NCBI GenBank assembly: GCA_038727705.1 | Contig: JAVYVJ010000001.1 | Location: forward strand, 607,924-671,923 | DNA from: Zestosphaera sp. | GTDB lineage: Archaea; Thermoproteota; Thermoprotei_A; Sulfolobales; NBVN01 | Direction of reading: 5' to 3' | Length of the DNA: 64,000 nucleotides | Part shown: piece after piece, positions 18,733-27,607 of the stretch | Layout: every line of letters starts with the position of its first letter | Position numbering within the stretch: the stretch's first letter is position 1 | Made by a program: the position numbers and the translations under genes | The notes under the pieces: model-generated | Databases searched by the model: none | What the model saw: only the letters and a program-made list of their open reading frames with translations | What the model was told of the DNA's origin: nothing

Positions 18733-20091
18733 ATGAAGCTCTCGTTAAAGGAAGCATTAGATGATCTTAACGTAATAGCAATTGTCGGCGGATCCCCTGT
18801 TAAGGGCAAAATAGGCAATACTATACTTGAGAACATAGTTAAGTCCGGTTTCCAAGGTAAGATCTACGTCATCAATCCCAAATACTCTGAGGTATTAGGG
18901 TTTAAGTCTTACGGGAGTTTAAAAGAGCTCCCCGAAGCTCCTGATGCCGTAGTAGTCGCCATACCTGCGAGCATGGCTGTTCAGTTGGTGGGTGAAGCGG
19001 TAGAGGTTGGAGTTAAGCTGGCGGTAATCATTTCATCAGGGTTTAGCGAGGTTGGTAGATCTGACCTACAGGAGGCTCTTGAGGAAATCATTAGAGCCTC
19101 AGACATTCGCGTCATAGGTCCTAACTCAGCAGGAGTGTTTATCAGCAGGTATTCCTTACATGCGAGCATAGAGTTCCCTCCTACTAAAGGGAAGGTGGGG
19201 GTTGCTGCTCAGAGCGGTGCTGTAGGCGGAGTAGTCATTAGTGAATTGAAGAGGTACTCATCAGGCGCGTCCTTCTTCGTAAGTCTAGGCAACAGTCTTG
19301 ACGTTTCCGTCGAGGAAGTCTTGGAATATAGTAGTGAAGATGAGGGTACGGAGGCCGTGATAACGTATTTGGAGTGGTTGCGTGATGGCAAACGCTTCAT
19401 TGAAGGAGGTCTTAAGTTACTGAGGACCGGCAAGCCTCTGTGTATTCTTAAGGGGGGCGTCGATAAGCGAAGCTCGGAAGCCGCTAGATCGCATACAGGA
19501 GGTCTAACACCCAACTTCGAAGTATTTAAAGCCGCCGTTTCCAAAGTCGGCGGGTACCTAGCGACTGACATTCCCGACGCTGTGGAAGTATGTGAGCTCT
19601 CAAGACGCTGTAAGGACCTCAACCCGTCGAGAGTGTTAGTACTCACGAATTCTGGCGGTTTGGGGGTCCTTACAGCGTCTAACCTGGAGTTACAAGGCTT
19701 CGAACTACCTAGACCTCCACGTGATCTGACCAACATGCTGCGTGATTACAATCTTCAAGCCGAGCCGGTTAACCCTATAGATCTGGGAGGGGATACCTAC
19801 ATAGAGGAGCTAACCGATCTACTTCTGCTGGACATGCTGAAGGAATACTATGACGTAGTGGTGCTGGCCTATGTCCCTACTGCAGCGGAATCCCCTGACA
19901 AAATAGCTGGAACTATTAATAACAAGGCAAAAGATTTTAGCCTACCGGTCATAGGGTACTTCGCGGGCGAGGGTTCGGTAGATGTGATTACTAGAGTGTC
20001 CGGGGATATTCCTGTAGCCACTTCATCCTGGTTTTTAAGTAGAGCCTTAGCATTTATAAGGGAGTTTAACTCTAGGAGGAGGTTGGTTTGA
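18733..20091 (+). CDS. ADP-forming acyl-CoA synthetase alpha subunit, second paralogue
   Basis: A 452-residue paralogue of the gene at 3907-5337. It keeps the Rossmann start (AIVGGSPVKGKIGN), VIGPNSAG (serine where cysteine is usual), AAQSGAVGG and a phosphohistidine motif RSHTGG near residue 253. It overlaps iorA by 4 bp and so forms an operon with indolepyruvate ferredoxin oxidoreductase. That context suggests it handles aryl-acetyl-CoA made by IorAB (inference), as the ACD II isoenzyme does in Thermococcales. No beta subunit is present here. Confidence 0.83.
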   Translation: MKLSLKEALDDLNVIAIVGGSPVKGKIGNTILENIVKSGFQGKIYVINPKYSEVLGFKSYGSLKELPEAPDAVVVAIPASMAVQLVGEAVEVGVKLAVIISSGFSEVGRSDLQEALEEIIRASDIRVIGPNSAGVFISRYSLHASIEFPPTKGKVGVAAQSGAVGGVVISELKRYSSGASFFVSLGNSLDVSVEEVLEYSSEDEGTEAVITYLEWLRDGKRFIEGGLKLLRTGKPLCILKGGVDKRSSEAARSHTGGLTPNFEVFKAAVSKVGGYLATDIPDAVEVCELSRRCKDLNPSRVLVLTNSGGLGVLTASNLELQGFELPRPPRDLTNMLRDYNLQAEPVNPIDLGGDTYIEELTDLLLLDMLKEYYDVVVLAYVPTAAESPDKIAGTINNKAKDFSLPVIGYFAGEGSVDVITRVSGDIPVATSSWFLSRALAFIREFNSRRRLV

Positions 20092-21962
20092 GGAATTATA
20101 ATCCCTTGAAGGCTCCTGAGGGCGTTAGAATAGCGTTAATGGGTAACGAGGCTATAGCTAGGGGTGTCGTCGAGTCAGGGACTTACGTAGTGACAGGCTA
20201 TCCTGGCACGCCTTCAAGTGAAATCATAATGACCCTTCACGAGTATGGCTCTGGACTAGATATTTACGCTGAGTGGGCTGTCAACGAGAGAGTCGCGTTC
20301 GAGATCGCACTAGGGGCTTCTCTGGGAGGAGCTAGGTCGTTAGTGACTATGAAGGGTCCAGGGCTTAACGTGGCCTCAGACCCTGCTTTATCAGCGGCTT
20401 ACTCCGGTGTCAACGGAGGCATGACTATCTTAGTTGCCGACGACCCAGGGCCTATGACCACCCAGACTGAGCAAGATAGCAGGTGGTACGCTAAGCTATC
20501 TAAGCTACCTATGGTGTCTCCCTCCTCACCTCAGGAAGCAAAGGATTTCATGGTCGTATCCCAGAGATTAAGTGAGGCACTGCAGTTGCCTGTTATACTT
20601 AGAACCACTACCAGGGTGAATCATACAGTAGGTGAAGTGATCACAGGAGGTACGGAACTCCCTAGGGGATTTCAGGGGTTCAGAGCTGACCCGCCCAGAT
20701 ATGTTAGGGCTGGCATGTCTTGGAATCTTGAGAGACACAAGTGGCTTAATAATCAACTTAGACTAGTTGAAGGCCTTGTTAAGCAATATGGTCTAAACAG
20801 AGTTGTTGAAGGTGGTAACAAATGCATCGTTACTGAAGGTGTGAGCTACAACTACGTCATGGAGGTTCTGAGCAGGTACCGCCCTACCGGCAATAACGTT
20901 AAGGTGATCAAAGTCGACCTTCTGTGGCCCATCCCAAGAGAATTCCTGCTTAACTCGCTAAGTGATTGTGAGGAGGTATTGGTCGTTGAGGAGCTTGATC
21001 CATATCTAGAGGAGTCCGTTAAAGCTTTGCTTAACGAACAGAAAATCAGGGTTAACGTATACGGTAAGTCGAACGGGTTTCTTCCATTAGAAGGCGAGCT
21101 CAGCGCGCTTCTCGTTGCTAAAACCCTCTCTAAACTACTGGGGTTCGGAGTGCTGAGCGCGGAGCCTAGGCTGAAGAGTTTAGAAGTCCCATCGCGTCCA
21201 CCACCCATGTGTCCTGGATGTCCCCACAGAAATTCCTACATAGCCATACTCTTCGGTATAGCCAAGGCTGGATACAGGCGTGAGGATATACCCATATTCG
21301 GTGATATAGGATGTTATGCGTTAAGTGTTAACCCACCGCTCAATGCTATATGGGTAGAGCACAGTATGGGGGCCAGCATCTCTATGGCTATAGGCTTTAA
21401 GATAAGTGGTTATAACAGACCTGTGATAGCTACGATAGGTGACTCCACATTCTTTCATGCAGGCTTACAACCGTTGATTGAAGCAGTTAATAAAAGGGTT
21501 GACCTTTTAGTTGTGGTGCTTGATAACTCGGTAGTGGCTATGACAGGCCATCAGTCAACGCCAGCATGGGAAACTACTGAGTCAGGTAGAAACGTAAAGC
21601 CCGTGGATATAGTTGAGATTGTACGGTCTGTGGGGGTTGAGAATTTAGCGGTAGTGGATCCCTTCAACCTAGATGAGATGACGACTAAAGTGAGTGAGTT
21701 CTTGAAGAAACCGGGCGTCAACGTCTTGATAGCCAGAGCCCCCTGCGCAATCCTTAAGGTTCGAAGAGAGGGCGTGAAGAGAAGGTATAAAGTCTTAAGT
21801 GACAAATGCACTAAATGTTTAGCTTGTGTAAGAGTTACTGGATGTCCCGCCCTATATGTGAGTGACGAGAAGGTCGCTGTGTCAACTGAAGACTGTGTCG
21901 GGTGCGGCCTCTGTGTCAGGTACTGTCCGTACAAAGCTATAGTTGAGGTGGAGGCAACGTGA
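20088..21962 (+). CDS. iorA: Indolepyruvate ferredoxin oxidoreductase, alpha subunit
   Basis: A 624-residue thiamine-diphosphate enzyme. The N-terminal pyrimidine-binding region contains TGYPGTPSSEI and KGPGLNV. The TPP-binding part has PMCPGCPHRNSY, FGDIGCYAL and IGDSTFFHAG. The C-terminus is a ferredoxin domain (residues ~563-620) with CTKCLACVRVTGCP and CVGCGLCVRYCP for two Fe-S clusters. It oxidises indolepyruvate and other aryl pyruvates to aryl-acetyl-CoA and reduces ferredoxin. It starts with TTG, overlapping the upstream gene, and overlaps iorB by 4 bp. Confidence 0.95.
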   Translation: MRNYNPLKAPEGVRIALMGNEAIARGVVESGTYVVTGYPGTPSSEIIMTLHEYGSGLDIYAEWAVNERVAFEIALGASLGGARSLVTMKGPGLNVASDPALSAAYSGVNGGMTILVADDPGPMTTQTEQDSRWYAKLSKLPMVSPSSPQEAKDFMVVSQRLSEALQLPVILRTTTRVNHTVGEVITGGTELPRGFQGFRADPPRYVRAGMSWNLERHKWLNNQLRLVEGLVKQYGLNRVVEGGNKCIVTEGVSYNYVMEVLSRYRPTGNNVKVIKVDLLWPIPREFLLNSLSDCEEVLVVEELDPYLEESVKALLNEQKIRVNVYGKSNGFLPLEGELSALLVAKTLSKLLGFGVLSAEPRLKSLEVPSRPPPMCPGCPHRNSYIAILFGIAKAGYRREDIPIFGDIGCYALSVNPPLNAIWVEHSMGASISMAIGFKISGYNRPVIATIGDSTFFHAGLQPLIEAVNKRVDLLVVVLDNSVVAMTGHQSTPAWETTESGRNVKPVDIVEIVRSVGVENLAVVDPFNLDEMTTKVSEFLKKPGVNVLIARAPCAILKVRREGVKRRYKVLSDKCTKCLACVRVTGCPALYVSDEKVAVSTEDCVGCGLCVRYCPYKAIVEVEAT

Positions 21963-22573
21963 GTGAATCCAAGATAGTGAATATTCTGATATCCTCAGTA
22001 GGAGGCCAGGGAGGTTTAACACTGTCTAGGGTCATAGCGGTAGCGTCCGTCCTTTCAGGCTATTCTGTAAGGACCGGCGAGACGTTGGGTATGGCTCAGA
22101 GATTTGGTAGTGTGCTGAGCTACGTTAGGGTAGGCATTGATGGGATTGTCTACTCTCCCCTCTTCGATGAGGGAGAAGCGCACTATATGGTGTGTATGGA
22201 GGTTATTGAATGCGCAAGGGCGCTGAAATATCTAGGAAGGGATGGTGTTTTGATAGTTGACGACGTGGTGAAACCCCCTACCTCAATGAGTCTCGTAGGC
22301 AGCGGTTCAGAGATTAAGAGTGTCCTGCTCAAGCAGATTAGCAGTACCATAGACTCTGCAAGGTTCTTTTTAGTTCCAGCCAAACGCATTGCAATAGAAC
22401 TTGGCTCTTCAAGAGCGGCCAACATGGTTCTACTGGGAGTTTTAAACGGCATATCAAAGTTATTCAGTGAAAGTGCAGTTACTGAAGCCGTCTCAAGCCT
22501 TTTCAGCAATAGCACGAGAGAACCCTCGCTACTCGCATACCGGAGAGGCGTGGACTACATTAAACACTTATGA
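21959..22573 (+). CDS. iorB: Indolepyruvate ferredoxin oxidoreductase, beta subunit
   Basis: A 204-residue gamma-domain-type subunit (POR gamma fold). The start SSVGGQGGLTLSRVIA and the GETLGMAQRFGSV segment are typical of IorB. It completes the IorAB complex with the preceding gene. The GTG start overlaps the iorA stop. Confidence 0.93.
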   Translation: MSESKIVNILISSVGGQGGLTLSRVIAVASVLSGYSVRTGETLGMAQRFGSVLSYVRVGIDGIVYSPLFDEGEAHYMVCMEVIECARALKYLGRDGVLIVDDVVKPPTSMSLVGSGSEIKSVLLKQISSTIDSARFFLVPAKRIAIELGSSRAANMVLLGVLNGISKLFSESAVTEAVSSLFSNSTREPSLLAYRRGVDYIKHL

Positions 22574-22613: not shown

Positions 22614-23288
22614 ATGTATTGCAGAGTAAAAATAGCTGTCTTCGATATGGATGGTGTTCTGGTTAAGTGGAGATCCTCTTGGAGAGCCCTTCACGAGTAC
22701 TTCGGATCTATAAACATAGTTAATGAGAGTAGAGACGCCGAGAAATTTCTCAAGGGGGAACTATCTTATGAGGAGTGGATGAGAAGGGATCTTGAAGCCA
22801 TAATAAAGTTTCTAGGCAGACCTCCAAGCAGAGACGAGATAGTTAGAGCCCTCACTAGATATGAGTTAACAGAAGGTGCAACGGAATTGATAGATTTCCT
22901 AAAATCGGCTAATGTCATCACAGCGATATTAAGTGGTGGAGTGGACGTACTTGCCGAGATGGTCGGCAATAGACTAGGTATAGACATAATACTTGCCAAC
23001 AAGCTGGTCTTTGATAAGAACAATCATTTAGCTCCCTATGGAATAGAGGTGGTCAACCCTCTCAAGAAAGGGGGTGTCCTAAGGAAGCTCTCAGAAGATC
23101 TCAGAATACCACTTAGTGACTTCATGTACGTCGGTGATTCTGAATGGGATTTCGAAGCCTTGAACGTCGTGGGGCTTCCAGTGCTTCTTAGTCATGGCGA
23201 CGTGCTGTTGCCAGAGGGAACAAGTTACATAATGCTTAACACACTCCATGATCTTAAGAAGTTACTGAACGCATGTTTTCGGCGATGA
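22614..23288 (+). CDS. HAD-superfamily phosphatase (SerB-like)
   Basis: A 224-residue HAD phosphatase: motif I VFDMDGVLV, an inserted helical cap (residues ~20-80), motif II ILSGG, and motif IV GDSEWDFEA. The cap and SGGVDVLAEMV segment resemble phosphoserine phosphatase, but the substrate is not proven. It lies 40 bp after iorB and is convergent with the unknown operon. Confidence 0.8.
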   Translation: MYCRVKIAVFDMDGVLVKWRSSWRALHEYFGSINIVNESRDAEKFLKGELSYEEWMRRDLEAIIKFLGRPPSRDEIVRALTRYELTEGATELIDFLKSANVITAILSGGVDVLAEMVGNRLGIDIILANKLVFDKNNHLAPYGIEVVNPLKKGGVLRKLSEDLRIPLSDFMYVGDSEWDFEALNVVGLPVLLSHGDVLLPEGTSYIMLNTLHDLKKLLNACFRR

Positions 23289-23324: not shown

Positions 23325-24203
23325 TCACGTAGACCGTAAGATATACCTGATTATTTCCTCCCGCAGAACGCTCAAGAACATTTGAGAGGCCTCCTCAGGA
23401 CTTCCGGAACTTCCCAGCACCAATTCGAATGATGTTACTACCCTGTCTTTGAATGCCTCATCACTTATGTGAATTCCAGAAATCAGCTCTTGAACGAGGT
23501 GTTTGAACTCGTTGTGAGCCCTCTCCGCCTGAAGAGGCAACCCTAGATTCTTTGAGTAGAAGTATATGAATGTTGTCAGAGTCAGGTCGATCATGTGCGA
23601 GAAATCGACATATATCAACATTCTCTTGAGCGAGTCGCTGAAACGAGTTGTAATATACTTTACATAATTTCTTGCAGCGCTTAGTAGTGTAGATACGTTT
23701 CTCCTATCCACGGAGGTGCTTAACGCCTTCACATAATCGATTATATTCTTTCTAACGTCTGCCGAACCTGTAGGAAGATCTACGGACTCGACAAACTCCC
23801 GTAGTCTGCTCATGGTTTCTGCGAGAAAATTCCATTCAGGAACGTTACCTTTCGTGAGAACTGTCATGACCCTGAATATAGGAGATAATAACAGAACATA
23901 GTTATGTAGCGTCCTCTCAATAATGTTCGTTATCTCCTGTCCTTCACTCATGAACTTATACAGGAAGACGAATCGTTCGATGTCCCCCTTAACCAACTCG
24001 TTTATAATTATTTCCGTAACAACACCGTCGATCGTTGTGATTTTTATTCTCGTTTCATTGCTTTTTTCCAAGACCTTAACTTGGGATAAGGATATTTTTC
24101 TAGACTCGCCGACCGCCTCCTTCTTCTCCAGAACAAGCGCTGTATCAGTCACCCGCACCAAACACTTATATTCCAATCCGTTTTCGAAACACCTAGTCGA
24201 CAT
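23325..24203 (-). CDS. Unrecognised 292-residue protein with beta-rich N-terminal domain
   Basis: I do not recognise this protein. The first ~90 residues alternate short beta-like stretches (CLVRVTDTALVLEKKEA, TRIKITTIDGVVTEIIIN), reminiscent of a PH-like or CheF-type fold. The rest is helical with no membrane segment. It is the third gene of a three-gene operon: its ATG lies 2 bp after the membrane protein's stop, with GGGGGTCTTAGGT as ribosome-binding site. A soluble partner of the membrane protein is a reasonable inference. Confidence 0.7.
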   Translation of the reverse strand: MSTRCFENGLEYKCLVRVTDTALVLEKKEAVGESRKISLSQVKVLEKSNETRIKITTIDGVVTEIIINELVKGDIERFVFLYKFMSEGQEITNIIERTLHNYVLLLSPIFRVMTVLTKGNVPEWNFLAETMSRLREFVESVDLPTGSADVRKNIIDYVKALSTSVDRRNVSTLLSAARNYVKYITTRFSDSLKRMLIYVDFSHMIDLTLTTFIYFYSKNLGLPLQAERAHNEFKHLVQELISGIHISDEAFKDRVVTSFELVLGSSGSPEEASQMFLSVLREEIIRYILRST

Positions 24204-24205
24204 AC

Positions 24206-26404
24206 CTAAGACCCCCTCTTCATATACACGACGCCTTCACGAACCTCTATGTCGGTTCTACTCATTAACAGAATCCACAGCAACTGGATAGAGACTTCTG
24301 TAGTGAATGGCAGTTCGTTAATATTCACCGTACCTCTCCTAGAGAGCTCGTACATGATGTAATCACCAAAGAGCTTCAGGTGCTCGGCGAGATTATTTAG
24401 GATGGTTAACCTCTCTAAGACCAAGGTGACGTTTTCAAGCACGCTAGGCATCTCTGTAAGGAGTTCATTAAACCCCCTCGTCAAGCTGTCCGGCGTTACA
24501 ATACTTTCTTTACTTACCTTAGACCTAATTAAGTCTACATGTCTTCTCAATCGGCTCAAAAGTAGTTCCTCTACATCTATTTTTTCTCCGTACATCGATT
24601 TTATCTTCATGCCTACTTTATTTATATCGGAGTAAAGACTGTTGCATAGATCGTTTGTAACGTTGAGTAAGTTAGTGTAGGTGGCCGCATATGTTCTTAA
24701 GTACGAGATCACTTCGGGCTCGCTGATTATTTCCGGTACGTCCGCTAATATATGACGCATTTTCTCAATTAGCAATGCTGAGTCAAGATCCCTCAATGGC
24801 TTCCTACTCAACTTGCCTAACATATCATTTAGTAAACTTCCAAGTTTCACTAACCCGCTGTGGATTGTTCTCAGCTTGGGTAGTGTGAAATCCACCAAGC
24901 TGCTGTACATGGCCAACATAGAATTCGTGTCTCTCACCATAGCCGAGCTTGAAAAGCAATTAACGCTTTCCATTCCATTTATCCTCAGTGAGATAGGGCC
25001 GAATTGCTCAGCAACGGTCATGTACGTGTTTAGAATTAAACCCTTAAGCCTTGAACAACTGTCTCTCAACAAGCCGGATACAGCCCCTATGTATGACAGG
25101 ATGTCTGTGACAGAGCGTGCGCTTTGTACGCCTGGTAATTTCTCCCGCAAATACTCGCTGCTGTAGGGTGTTGCGGTGATCAAAGCTATAGACTTTGATA
25201 GAGTGTTTAAGGATTTGTCAAATAACTCTAGCATGTTTGTTGAGACCTTGTCTATGTCACGCTTTATAGACTCCATAGCATTGTGGAGGGCCTGGAACTT
25301 GGCTGTGGATATCAGTCTCCTTGACAGCTCGAGTTTCGAGCTACCCGCCGCATACTCGAGTTCGGCTATAACGCTTCTGATAGGTTCTAATTCTTCCTCA
25401 CTCCATAAGCCACTGCTCTTCATTACGTCGTAAACTTGCTTCAGTGCATCTATCTCACGTGTCAGTCTATCTAAGATCGACATCAGATATTTTTTCTCCT
25501 TTACTACCACCTTCACGTAGTATGAAGACATTGTCAGGAAGGAGGTTATAACTCCGGCCAGGATAACTGAGGCCGTATTTAGCTCTAGATAGCTGTAGAA
25601 CGGCTCAGACCTCAAAACCGACATGCTTAAGTAGAAGGAACCCACAAAACCTAGGAGAGGTAGCAGATGACTCATCACCACAGCAAGAATGTTGCTCACC
25701 TCCCCACCTGGCGTAGTTCGCGTAATTATGGAGATGAACGAAGCTATAGTGAAACTAGCTATCACTGCCAAGATCAAATTAGTTAACTCTGCCGCTGTCA
25801 CTACAAGCATGTGAGGAACTATCGTCACGTCTGGGACTAGATAGTAGACACCTACAAATGGTAGGAAGGCGAAGCAGATGCTCATAACGTCTGACAAGTA
25901 GACCTTAAAGCTCCTAGATGCAAGGGTTGCTAACGCAGGTATCCAGATGAGCATGTAAGCACTAACCTCCACACCGGGGAGCTCGTCCATGAGCAGCATA
26001 GCTAGGAAGAAGAATATCGGCAGGTGTGTGGATAACTCCCAGAAACTAAGCTTGGTTGCAAGGTTCCACGCAATCACAGTGATCATCAGCAATGTCGTCA
26101 GTATTATGTATAAACCTCCTATCGGTGGAAGTCTGGCGGAAGAGAAGGAGAAAGCAACGTTGACTATCACTATGTAGCTTACGAATAGAGAGGAAAACGA
26201 TAAAGCGTCGTATCTCGGACTATCTTTAGGGTAAAGTAGCGGTGCAATGAGAGTTATGACTATTAAGGATCCAGTCAGCGGTATTCCTATAGGGTCTTGC
26301 ATGACTCTTAATGCATGACTGGTCAGCAGTATCCAAGATGAGATTACCAGCGAAACTAGGAAAGTTCTTAGCTTCATGCCTCTAAATATAGGGTAGTTTG
26401 TCAT
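24206..26404 (-). CDS. Unrecognised 732-residue polytopic membrane protein with long helical cytoplasmic region
   Basis: The first ~300 residues contain about eight to ten hydrophobic segments (for example TFLVSLVISSWILLTS, GSLIVITLIAPLLY, LLPLLGFVGSFYLSMSVL). Residues ~310-690 are predicted helical and hydrophilic with coiled-coil character (MSILDRLTREIDALKQV). The last ~45 residues (RRGTVNINELPFTTEV, then LLWILLMSRTDIEVREG) look like a small winged-helix-type cap. The architecture recalls sensors or mechanical adaptors, but I find no known family motif. The start overlaps the upstream gene by ATGA. Confidence 0.75.
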   Translation of the reverse strand: MTNYPIFRGMKLRTFLVSLVISSWILLTSHALRVMQDPIGIPLTGSLIVITLIAPLLYPKDSPRYDALSFSSLFVSYIVIVNVAFSFSSARLPPIGGLYIILTTLLMITVIAWNLATKLSFWELSTHLPIFFFLAMLLMDELPGVEVSAYMLIWIPALATLASRSFKVYLSDVMSICFAFLPFVGVYYLVPDVTIVPHMLVVTAAELTNLILAVIASFTIASFISIITRTTPGGEVSNILAVVMSHLLPLLGFVGSFYLSMSVLRSEPFYSYLELNTASVILAGVITSFLTMSSYYVKVVVKEKKYLMSILDRLTREIDALKQVYDVMKSSGLWSEEELEPIRSVIAELEYAAGSSKLELSRRLISTAKFQALHNAMESIKRDIDKVSTNMLELFDKSLNTLSKSIALITATPYSSEYLREKLPGVQSARSVTDILSYIGAVSGLLRDSCSRLKGLILNTYMTVAEQFGPISLRINGMESVNCFSSSAMVRDTNSMLAMYSSLVDFTLPKLRTIHSGLVKLGSLLNDMLGKLSRKPLRDLDSALLIEKMRHILADVPEIISEPEVISYLRTYAATYTNLLNVTNDLCNSLYSDINKVGMKIKSMYGEKIDVEELLLSRLRRHVDLIRSKVSKESIVTPDSLTRGFNELLTEMPSVLENVTLVLERLTILNNLAEHLKLFGDYIMYELSRRGTVNINELPFTTEVSIQLLWILLMSRTDIEVREGVVYMKRGS

Positions 26405-27492
26405 TGCGAGCCCCTCTCCACCTCTGATAGGAATTCCCTAGTCAATCTGATGGCAGGCAAGATGGTCTTAAGGTTCCTCTCTTCTCCACTAAGAACTTCG
26501 GTAATTCGCCATATATCACTAGCGAGGATGCCTATCAGCTCCTGACTGCTTTCAGCTAGAAACATACGCACATAATCCGTATCAGACTGTTTAGGGATGA
26601 ACACCTTATGTATAGTCCAGCCACATGCCTTAATCATGTCAGTAATACTTACTTCGTTAAGGAGCTCTGCGTTACCCTCTAGATATGCATACCCCAAATC
26701 CCCTGTGAAGACGGCCCCCCAAGTGAGGAACTTAGCCAGACTGGAAGCCCCGGCTATATTCCTTATCAATAAGGAAGCGTCGTTGATACTGAATAGAGAA
26801 ATGAAATACACGTGCCTAGTCTCCCTGGTGTCCGCCAGTATGATGTCCCTACCTATAATGTCCCTACCTATATTTTCCGAGTAGAGCCTTAGGGCCCACC
26901 TCACCAAGTCCTCTAACACGTCGCTGTAAAAATACTTGCGTAACCTATCTATCCTCAGTACACTCACTCTATTAACTAATCTCTCTTTCAACGTCTTCGC
27001 CAGGAAGGTAATTAAGTTAAACTTATCTACAAGACTTAGATCGTTCTCCACCAGAATTAACGCCTCCGCTCTACCAGTGCTACCTTTAAACGCTCTAAAC
27101 TTCTCAAGTATCCTGTAATTGATGAAGAAATCCTCCGTGTGCGCCCTGAGTAGGAGAAATAACTCGCCAACGTCGTCAGTCAGTAGTGAGGAAAAGACGG
27201 ACTCAGCATCCGATACGGTGTCAGTAACTTTATCCTGGAAGCTTACCCAGGCTGTGTAGCGATATGGAAGCCTGGAAGACCCAAGAACTAAATAAGTGTT
27301 CGGCTTGACAAACTTTACGGATCTCTCGCGATTCTCCTCTTTAGCTTTGATTATGGCATAGCCCTTATTCACTAGAGGATCTATAAGCAGATCTGCGAAA
27401 GGAGTGTCTACAATCACTGCCAGCTTACTGTAGTCTATAAAGTCTAAAGAGCTTAAGAAACCCTCAAACACGTATAAAGACCAGAGGCTCAT
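26401..27492 (-). CDS. Unrecognised 363-residue soluble protein, first gene of the three-gene operon
   Basis: An alpha/beta-looking protein with Rossmann-like stretches (KLAVIVDTPFADLL, NTYLVLGSSR, AEALILVEND) and no membrane segment. No family motif is recognised. I choose ATG 27492 over the TTG one codon earlier, with GGTGGG ahead as ribosome-binding site. A minus-strand TATA element (GATTTATAGT, near 27533-27545) marks the likely operon promoter. A perfect 15-bp tandem duplication sits inside (26843-26872). It overlaps the following gene by 4 bp. Confidence 0.72.
   Translation of the reverse strand: MSLWSLYVFEGFLSSLDFIDYSKLAVIVDTPFADLLIDPLVNKGYAIIKAKEENRERSVKFVKPNTYLVLGSSRLPYRYTAWVSFQDKVTDTVSDAESVFSSLLTDDVGELFLLLRAHTEDFFINYRILEKFRAFKGSTGRAEALILVENDLSLVDKFNLITFLAKTLKERLVNRVSVLRIDRLRKYFYSDVLEDLVRWALRLYSENIGRDIIGRDIILADTRETRHVYFISLFSINDASLLIRNIAGASSLAKFLTWGAVFTGDLGYAYLEGNAELLNEVSITDMIKACGWTIHKVFIPKQSDTDYVRMFLAESSQELIGILASDIWRITEVLSGEERNLKTILPAIRLTREFLSEVERGSQ
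26843..26872. repeat. Perfect 15-bp tandem duplication within coding sequence
   Basis: The unit ATGTCCCTACCTATA occurs twice without gap, adding a second copy of five residues (IGRDI IGRDI) in the minus-strand protein. The frame is kept, so the protein simply gains five residues. Confidence 0.95.
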
Positions 27493-27607
27493 CAAAACCC
27501 ACCAGTCATCTCTAAATGTATTATTGTACTTACTCCACTATAAATCTTAACCCTATGTGAGGACTTTGGGATCCCTCCACATTCGACCAAGATTAACTCA
27601 CATAAAT

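Follow-up and report, generated by a model that had tools for sequence, protein, structure and literature searches.

A three-gene operon of Zestosphaera as a probable GTPase-less variant of the FtsZ-like-1 membrane systems of Thermoproteota

Organisation of the operon and its surroundings

The window analysed here is a stretch of 64,000 nucleotides from a Zestosphaera sp. genome of 1.59 Mb in 4 contigs, and it contains three closely packed genes, designated A, B and C, on the minus strand (Table 1). Inspection of the sequence gives a 4-bp overlap at the A/B junction (..caATGAcaa..) and a 2-bp gap at the B/C junction (TAG-gt-ATG), in agreement with a preliminary description of this DNA, according to which an overlapping ATGA and a gap of 2 bp join these minus-strand genes. 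The ATG of gene A is more likely to be its start than the TTG in front of it, because the relatives of A start at the equivalent of MSLW, and the TTTATA element further upstream is a plausible candidate for a TATA box.

Table 1. Features of the A-B-C operon in the window (T is the GTPase gene product described below)
Feature	Position	Strand	Remarks
Gene A	26401-27495	minus	364 aa from TTG 27495, 363 aa from ATG 27492
Gene B	24206-26404	minus	732 aa ORF
Gene C	23325-24203	minus	292 aa ORF
C-terminal tip of B (ELPF)	24209-24427	minus	Alignment across families with and without T
TTTATA, candidate TATA box	27539-27544	minus	Read from sequence, 47 bp upstream of ATG 27492

The operon is followed by a HAD hydrolase gene convergent with C and preceded by an M29 aminopeptidase gene. 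The HAD-family hydrolase (window 22614-23288) lies near the three genes in most genomes of the family, which probably reflects a mere conserved neighbourhood; moreover, the adjoining block at window 18733-22573, comprising a CoA-binding/succinyl-CoA-ligase-like gene and 2-oxoacid/indolepyruvate ferredoxin oxidoreductase genes, is strongly conserved, with about 47-78% identity across the family.

Conservation within the family

The preliminary description had suggested a survey of gene neighbourhoods. Such a survey of 31 genomes in 11 genera of the window's family (Zestosphaera and relatives) found B in 19 genomes belonging to 8 genera, and the order A-B-C, translational coupling included, is identical in them wherever the contig allows. 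Within a genus the proteins of the triad share 43-58% identity, as against 55-87% for the neighbouring genes, and across the family their identity falls to about 18%, with order, overlaps and open frames retained and without stops. Because the order and the open frames are retained across 19 genomes, A, B and C are real genes and not chance ORFs. B was not found in one genus represented by 7 genomes of up to 97% completeness (g8); several genera of the family are without B, and presumably without the triad, therefore the function is presumably dispensable and the system not essential.

Weak matches of B across the order (E 1e-3 to 1e-7) proved to be coiled-coil stretches in other proteins and were left uncounted. 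A protein of 1274 aa (L149:2621-6445), with a signal-like N-terminus and a C-terminal TM segment, has a helical part weakly resembling the arm of B, probably by coiled-coil similarity. In some genera a conserved gene of 154 aa lies upstream of the triad; it looks like an archaeal riboflavin synthase, and it was rejected as a member of the system.

Predicted architecture of B and C

Hydropathy averaged over the family gives 10 hydrophobic peaks in B, and the charges of its loops alternate as the positive-inside rule expects for an N-in/C-in protein. B is accordingly predicted to have 10 TM helices with the N-terminus inside, and because the charge alternation fits N-in/C-in, its C-terminal helical arm of ~440 residues should be cytoplasmic; a membrane protein of about ten helices with a helical cytoplasmic arm, then put at ~380 residues, had already been proposed from the single sequence, and the family averages bear it out. 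In the arm, cysteines C450 and C483 are invariant in the first family alignment. The C-terminal tip, which contains ELPF, is the best conserved block of the whole system and is present in all relatives, including those linked to a GTPase; its profile found no match in the PDB by sequence, and our impression from the secondary structure is that it is winged-helix-like.

For C, the AlphaFold model (pLDDT 89) shows an N-terminus of seven strands capped by a long helix, about residues 1-117 with the capping helix, followed by an all-helical domain of seven helices. The best PDB matches found by Foldseek are mostly PH domains and PH/PTB-like modules, with probability about 1.0 and E 0.03-0.1; by sequence, C matched no PH family in Pfam and nothing in the PDB. 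Altogether the confident model shows the predicted N-terminal domain to have a PH fold, so that the beta-rich, PH-like start ascribed to C in the preliminary description holds. Two cysteines of C, C5 and C14, are invariant.

A five-gene system with an FtsZ-like-1 GTPase

The profile of B reaches two genomes in another family of the order (f11, Sulfolobaceae-like), where the operon containing B also encodes a protein of ~880 aa, here called T, with matches to PF13809 Tubulin_2 (9e-18) and PF00091 Tubulin (3.5e-8) and with the motif GGGTGSG. T is assigned by these matches to the FtsZ-like-1 (FtsZl1, Tubulin_2) GTPases; it consists of an N-terminal tubulin domain, a coiled coil and a C-terminal domain. 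A search with T and a reading of the neighbourhoods revealed a recurrent gene set of S, T, A, B and C, where S is a protein of about 315 aa with a signal peptide and one C-terminal TM segment. At the level of the order, S, T, A and B occur together in 8 of 9 loci, the ninth genome having S-T on one contig and B-A-C on another. In the rest of the phylum T was found in 21 of the 398 genomes sampled; S, T and A are together in 15 of the 18 loci read there, and B also wherever the contig reaches. The layout varies among S-T-A-B-C, S-T-B-A-C and an arrangement in which A lies between T and B but in the opposite orientation. Between families T retains 30-43% identity, A and C 9-24%; of all subunits T evolves most slowly, and distant lineages still contain matches to it at E < 1e-200. 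No vWA model of Pfam was matched among the core genes of two T loci.

Other relatives of T were observed besides these loci. A second FtsZl1 subtype occurs in the same order (L080, L081, L083 and L085). Its T is about 880-1050 aa long, with N-terminal TM helices that lie either within T or directly in front of it; the adjoining protein measures 695-830 aa and carries TM helices at its C-terminus, and three of the four loci also encode a protein of ~263 aa. In L085, IS-like ORFs of equal size (~319 aa) interrupt both T and this neighbour, which may be compared with the transposon-disrupted SSO1376 reported in 2010. In another locus (L051:5514-8170) a break close to where the GTPase domain ends divides T into adjacent ORFs of 417 and 454 aa, either by a true gene split or by a sequencing error, and a T relative of 960 aa (L174:8908-11790) has no recognisable S, A, B or C alongside.

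The subunits of the window's family (f1) were compared with those of the T-operon families (f3/f9, f11 and f17) by profile-profile alignment with hhalign. The A of f1 scores 60-70% against the A of f3/f9, which in turn scores 91% (f3) against that of f11; B scores 97.5-99.6% against the B subunits of FtsZl1 operons; and the C of f1 scores 74-89% against the C of f3/f9 and 81% against that of f17. Nearly all non-counterpart pairs and control proteins stay below 5%, the exceptions being coiled-coil stretches, B-T at 73% and B-C at up to 28%. Moreover, HMMs of the window's family directly match the A (1.4e-5) and the C (7e-6, 4e-5) of T operons. Neither the A nor the C of f1 gives a significant match to its Sulfolobaceae-type counterpart when the two are compared directly; A is tied to it via intermediates, and C by position and layout. 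These subunit-specific links, together with co-localisation, identify the window triad by homology as the A-B-C part of the S-T-A-B-C system, without S and T.

A as a putative pseudo-tubulin

The AlphaFold model of A, built with seven sequences, has a mean pLDDT of 56 and a pTM of 0.56, with residues 22-208 modelled best. Of its 33 best Foldseek matches in the PDB, 30 belong to the tubulin superfamily (best E 1.6e-5), namely tubulins, gamma-tubulins, bacterial or Asgard tubulins and TubZ, with TM-scores of only 0.3-0.4; a Foldseek search of viral structures, which gave only a few FtsZ-like matches amid noise, was set aside. A profile pooled from A proteins can be aligned with the FtsZ of Thermoproteota across 220 columns, T1, T4, S5 and S6 being in register, at a score (E 0.06) that is not significant alone and that was reached by none of 60 block-shuffled profiles. 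When more A families are pooled, A against FtsZ rises to 32% (E 5e-4), and the A of T operons reaches 44% (E 2e-4) against the GTPase domain of T, the controls staying at 0.5% or less in both cases. The similarity of A to FtsZ thus falls below conventional significance at the sequence level: the profile of the window's family alone is not significant against FtsZ or T and becomes suggestive only with all A families pooled, and a sequence search of the PDB with A returned nothing, no tubulin included.

The GGGTG(S/T)G T4 loop and the T1 loop are absent from all 37 A proteins scanned, and A matches neither PF00091 nor PF13809; in family f17 the T-linked A has WDGVGS, which resembles a worn-down T4. 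We consider A very probably a pseudo-GTPase of the tubulin/FtsZ fold, and probably not a GTPase. As the GTP loops are missing from the A proteins scanned in T-containing operons too, A would not simply be a decayed T.

It might be argued that the triad serves as a sensor or signalling complex in the membrane, that its ancestry is not cytoskeletal and that A resembles tubulin by a generic Rossmann-like match, as the missing GTP loops, the low-confidence model and the PDB sequence search would allow. However, the PDB is rich in Rossmann-like folds and yet nearly all top matches of A are in the tubulin superfamily; the independent profile alignment with FtsZ gives the same strand register, and the counterparts of A adjoin a true tubulin-like GTPase and carry a degenerate T4-like stretch, which makes this explanation quite unlikely. 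The three proteins had been called unrecognised in the preliminary description. This stands for the sequence family libraries, since A, B and C gave only sub-threshold noise against Pfam, NCBIfam and PADLOC with no model assigned (among the PADLOC models of anti-phage defence, none was matched by any of them); it does not stand for fold and context, where A is most likely a degenerate tubulin/FtsZ fold, C has a predicted PH domain and the set groups with FtsZ-like-1 systems.

Absence of the GTPase and the history of the triad

Neither PF13809 nor PF00091 nor the crenarchaeal T GTPase-domain profile has a match in the window genome or in the 30 other genomes of its family, and S has no convincing match in any of the 31; in the 14 genomes used as controls, the PF00091 search detected its target 13 times. 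Weak matches of the T profile in the family were discarded as coiled-coil only, save one marginal match of 47 residues (E 0.06). The searches thus show the window's family to be without any detectable tubulin/FtsZ GTPase. Such a GTPase could still be present, too diverged or encoded too far away for detection, considering that these proteins evolve quickly and that T and A-B-C lie on different contigs in one genome; we find this very improbable, given that T, the slowest-evolving subunit, is so readily detected in distant lineages and that several of the family genomes without a GTPase-domain match are over 95% complete.

With S and T missing and the remaining genes diverging quickly, the triad might also be taken for the decaying leftovers of a lost system. 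This is hardly tenable, for on every complete contig B has an open, full-length frame, 8 genera retain both the order of the genes and their overlaps, and the invariant residues persist.

The data are read most simply as a loss of S-T at the base of the family, since T-linked versions exist both within this order and in other lineages. In the unrooted tree of B, all T-less B proteins fall on one side of a branch with 100/100 support and all T-linked ones, other orders included, on the other. This separation speaks for an alternative in which the triad is not a product of S-T loss but an old paralogue of the A-B-C linked to FtsZl1, independent of T from early on; the GTPase would then never have been used in this lineage, and the triad may have another job, such as keeping an envelope protein in position. 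We judge the paralogue somewhat unlikely: the tree is unrooted and has long branches, S-T-A-B-C turns up in several families of this order as well as in other lineages of the phylum, and none of the genomes seen carries both versions.

Altogether, with a probability of roughly 0.7, the triad is the membrane-and-adaptor part of the Thermoproteota FtsZl1 system, of which S and T are gone in the window's family.

Proposed function

In the full system, S would be a surface protein, T the tubulin-like GTPase, A the pseudo-tubulin, B the anchor with 10 TM helices and C the PH-domain adaptor. B may fix A and C to the inner face of the membrane, its arm and tip presenting the binding sites for both; A, presumably without the usual GTP binding, could serve as an adaptor or as an assembly unit, either static or regulated, and C could use its PH domain to bind lipid, A or the arm of B. 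Where the system is complete, T would form polymers with GTP and A would be its partner, cap or adaptor, and the A-B-C of Zestosphaeraceae would be a GTP-free scaffold that shapes the membrane locally or organises the envelope. The complex would then organise or curve the membrane, as in vesicle budding or envelope shape, rather than carry out FtsZ-type division. We therefore regard the triad as a GTPase-less, membrane-anchored pseudo-tubulin scaffold that probably organises or bends membrane. A more specific picture, in which nucleotide-free A assembles as a polymer or a tiled layer along the arm of B, C being the adaptor, and so provides a membrane cytoskeleton in a cell with no other tubulin-family GTPase, is doubtful and is offered tentatively.

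The preliminary description had pictured a sensor or scaffold in the membrane, served by a pair of dedicated partner proteins. Its packing and topology hold, and its scaffold part agrees with the conserved order and with the same subunits being co-located in S-T-A-B-C operons; the sensor half found no supporting evidence, and the link to tubulin had been overlooked.

Relation to known systems

FtsZ/tubulin systems are usually said to be missing from Crenarchaea; here a five-gene FtsZ-like membrane module recurs in the phylum, including a second, GTP-loop-less and putatively tubulin-like subunit and a predicted PH-domain protein, and one family keeps only the non-GTPase part, so that a tubulin fold has apparently outlived the loss of its own GTPase partner. 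The almost unstudied FtsZl1 systems thereby gain defined partner proteins, and their role becomes testable, as Sulfolobaceae-type genomes carry the full set. We found no description of the S-T-A-B-C set, or of a pseudo-tubulin within such a set, in the open-licence literature.

As to Cdv/ESCRT-III, the likeness is that it too remodels membranes and belongs to the same archaeal class, and CdvA and CdvB also join small beta or winged-helix parts to helices; however, A, B and C have no similarity to Snf7 (PF03357) or to other Pfam families. Membership of the triad in Cdv/ESCRT was rejected, the matches of the Snf7 profile in the family being weak and elsewhere. C resembles PH/PTB-like proteins in the seven-strand barrel and capping helix predicted for its N-terminus, and differs from them in lacking a Pfam PH match and in the fusion of the PH-like domain to a helical bundle. 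Likewise A resembles the FtsZ/CetZ/TubZ/tubulin superfamily in predicted fold and strand order, and differs in its missing glycine-rich T1 and T4 loops and superfamily Pfam matches.

The closest likeness is to the FtsZl1 (PF13809) systems, which were predicted to be multisubunit, membrane-associated and membrane-remodelling complexes (Makarova & Koonin 2010, PMC2875224). Their published contexts include vWA proteins, protein kinases and P-loop GTPases, and not A, B or C as such, and the one crenarchaeal member reported, SSO1376, was described with N-terminal TM helices (PMC2875224), apparently representing an FtsZl1 subtype different from that of S-T-A-B-C; the authors of the Culexarchaeia study noted FtsZL1 in only two Sulfolobales (PMC9723716). 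The counterparts of A, B and C share operons with an FtsZl1 GTPase and a membrane protein, whereas the window's family is without T and S. To sum up, the triad is probably a variant, without the GTPase, of a type of system that is known but has been little studied.
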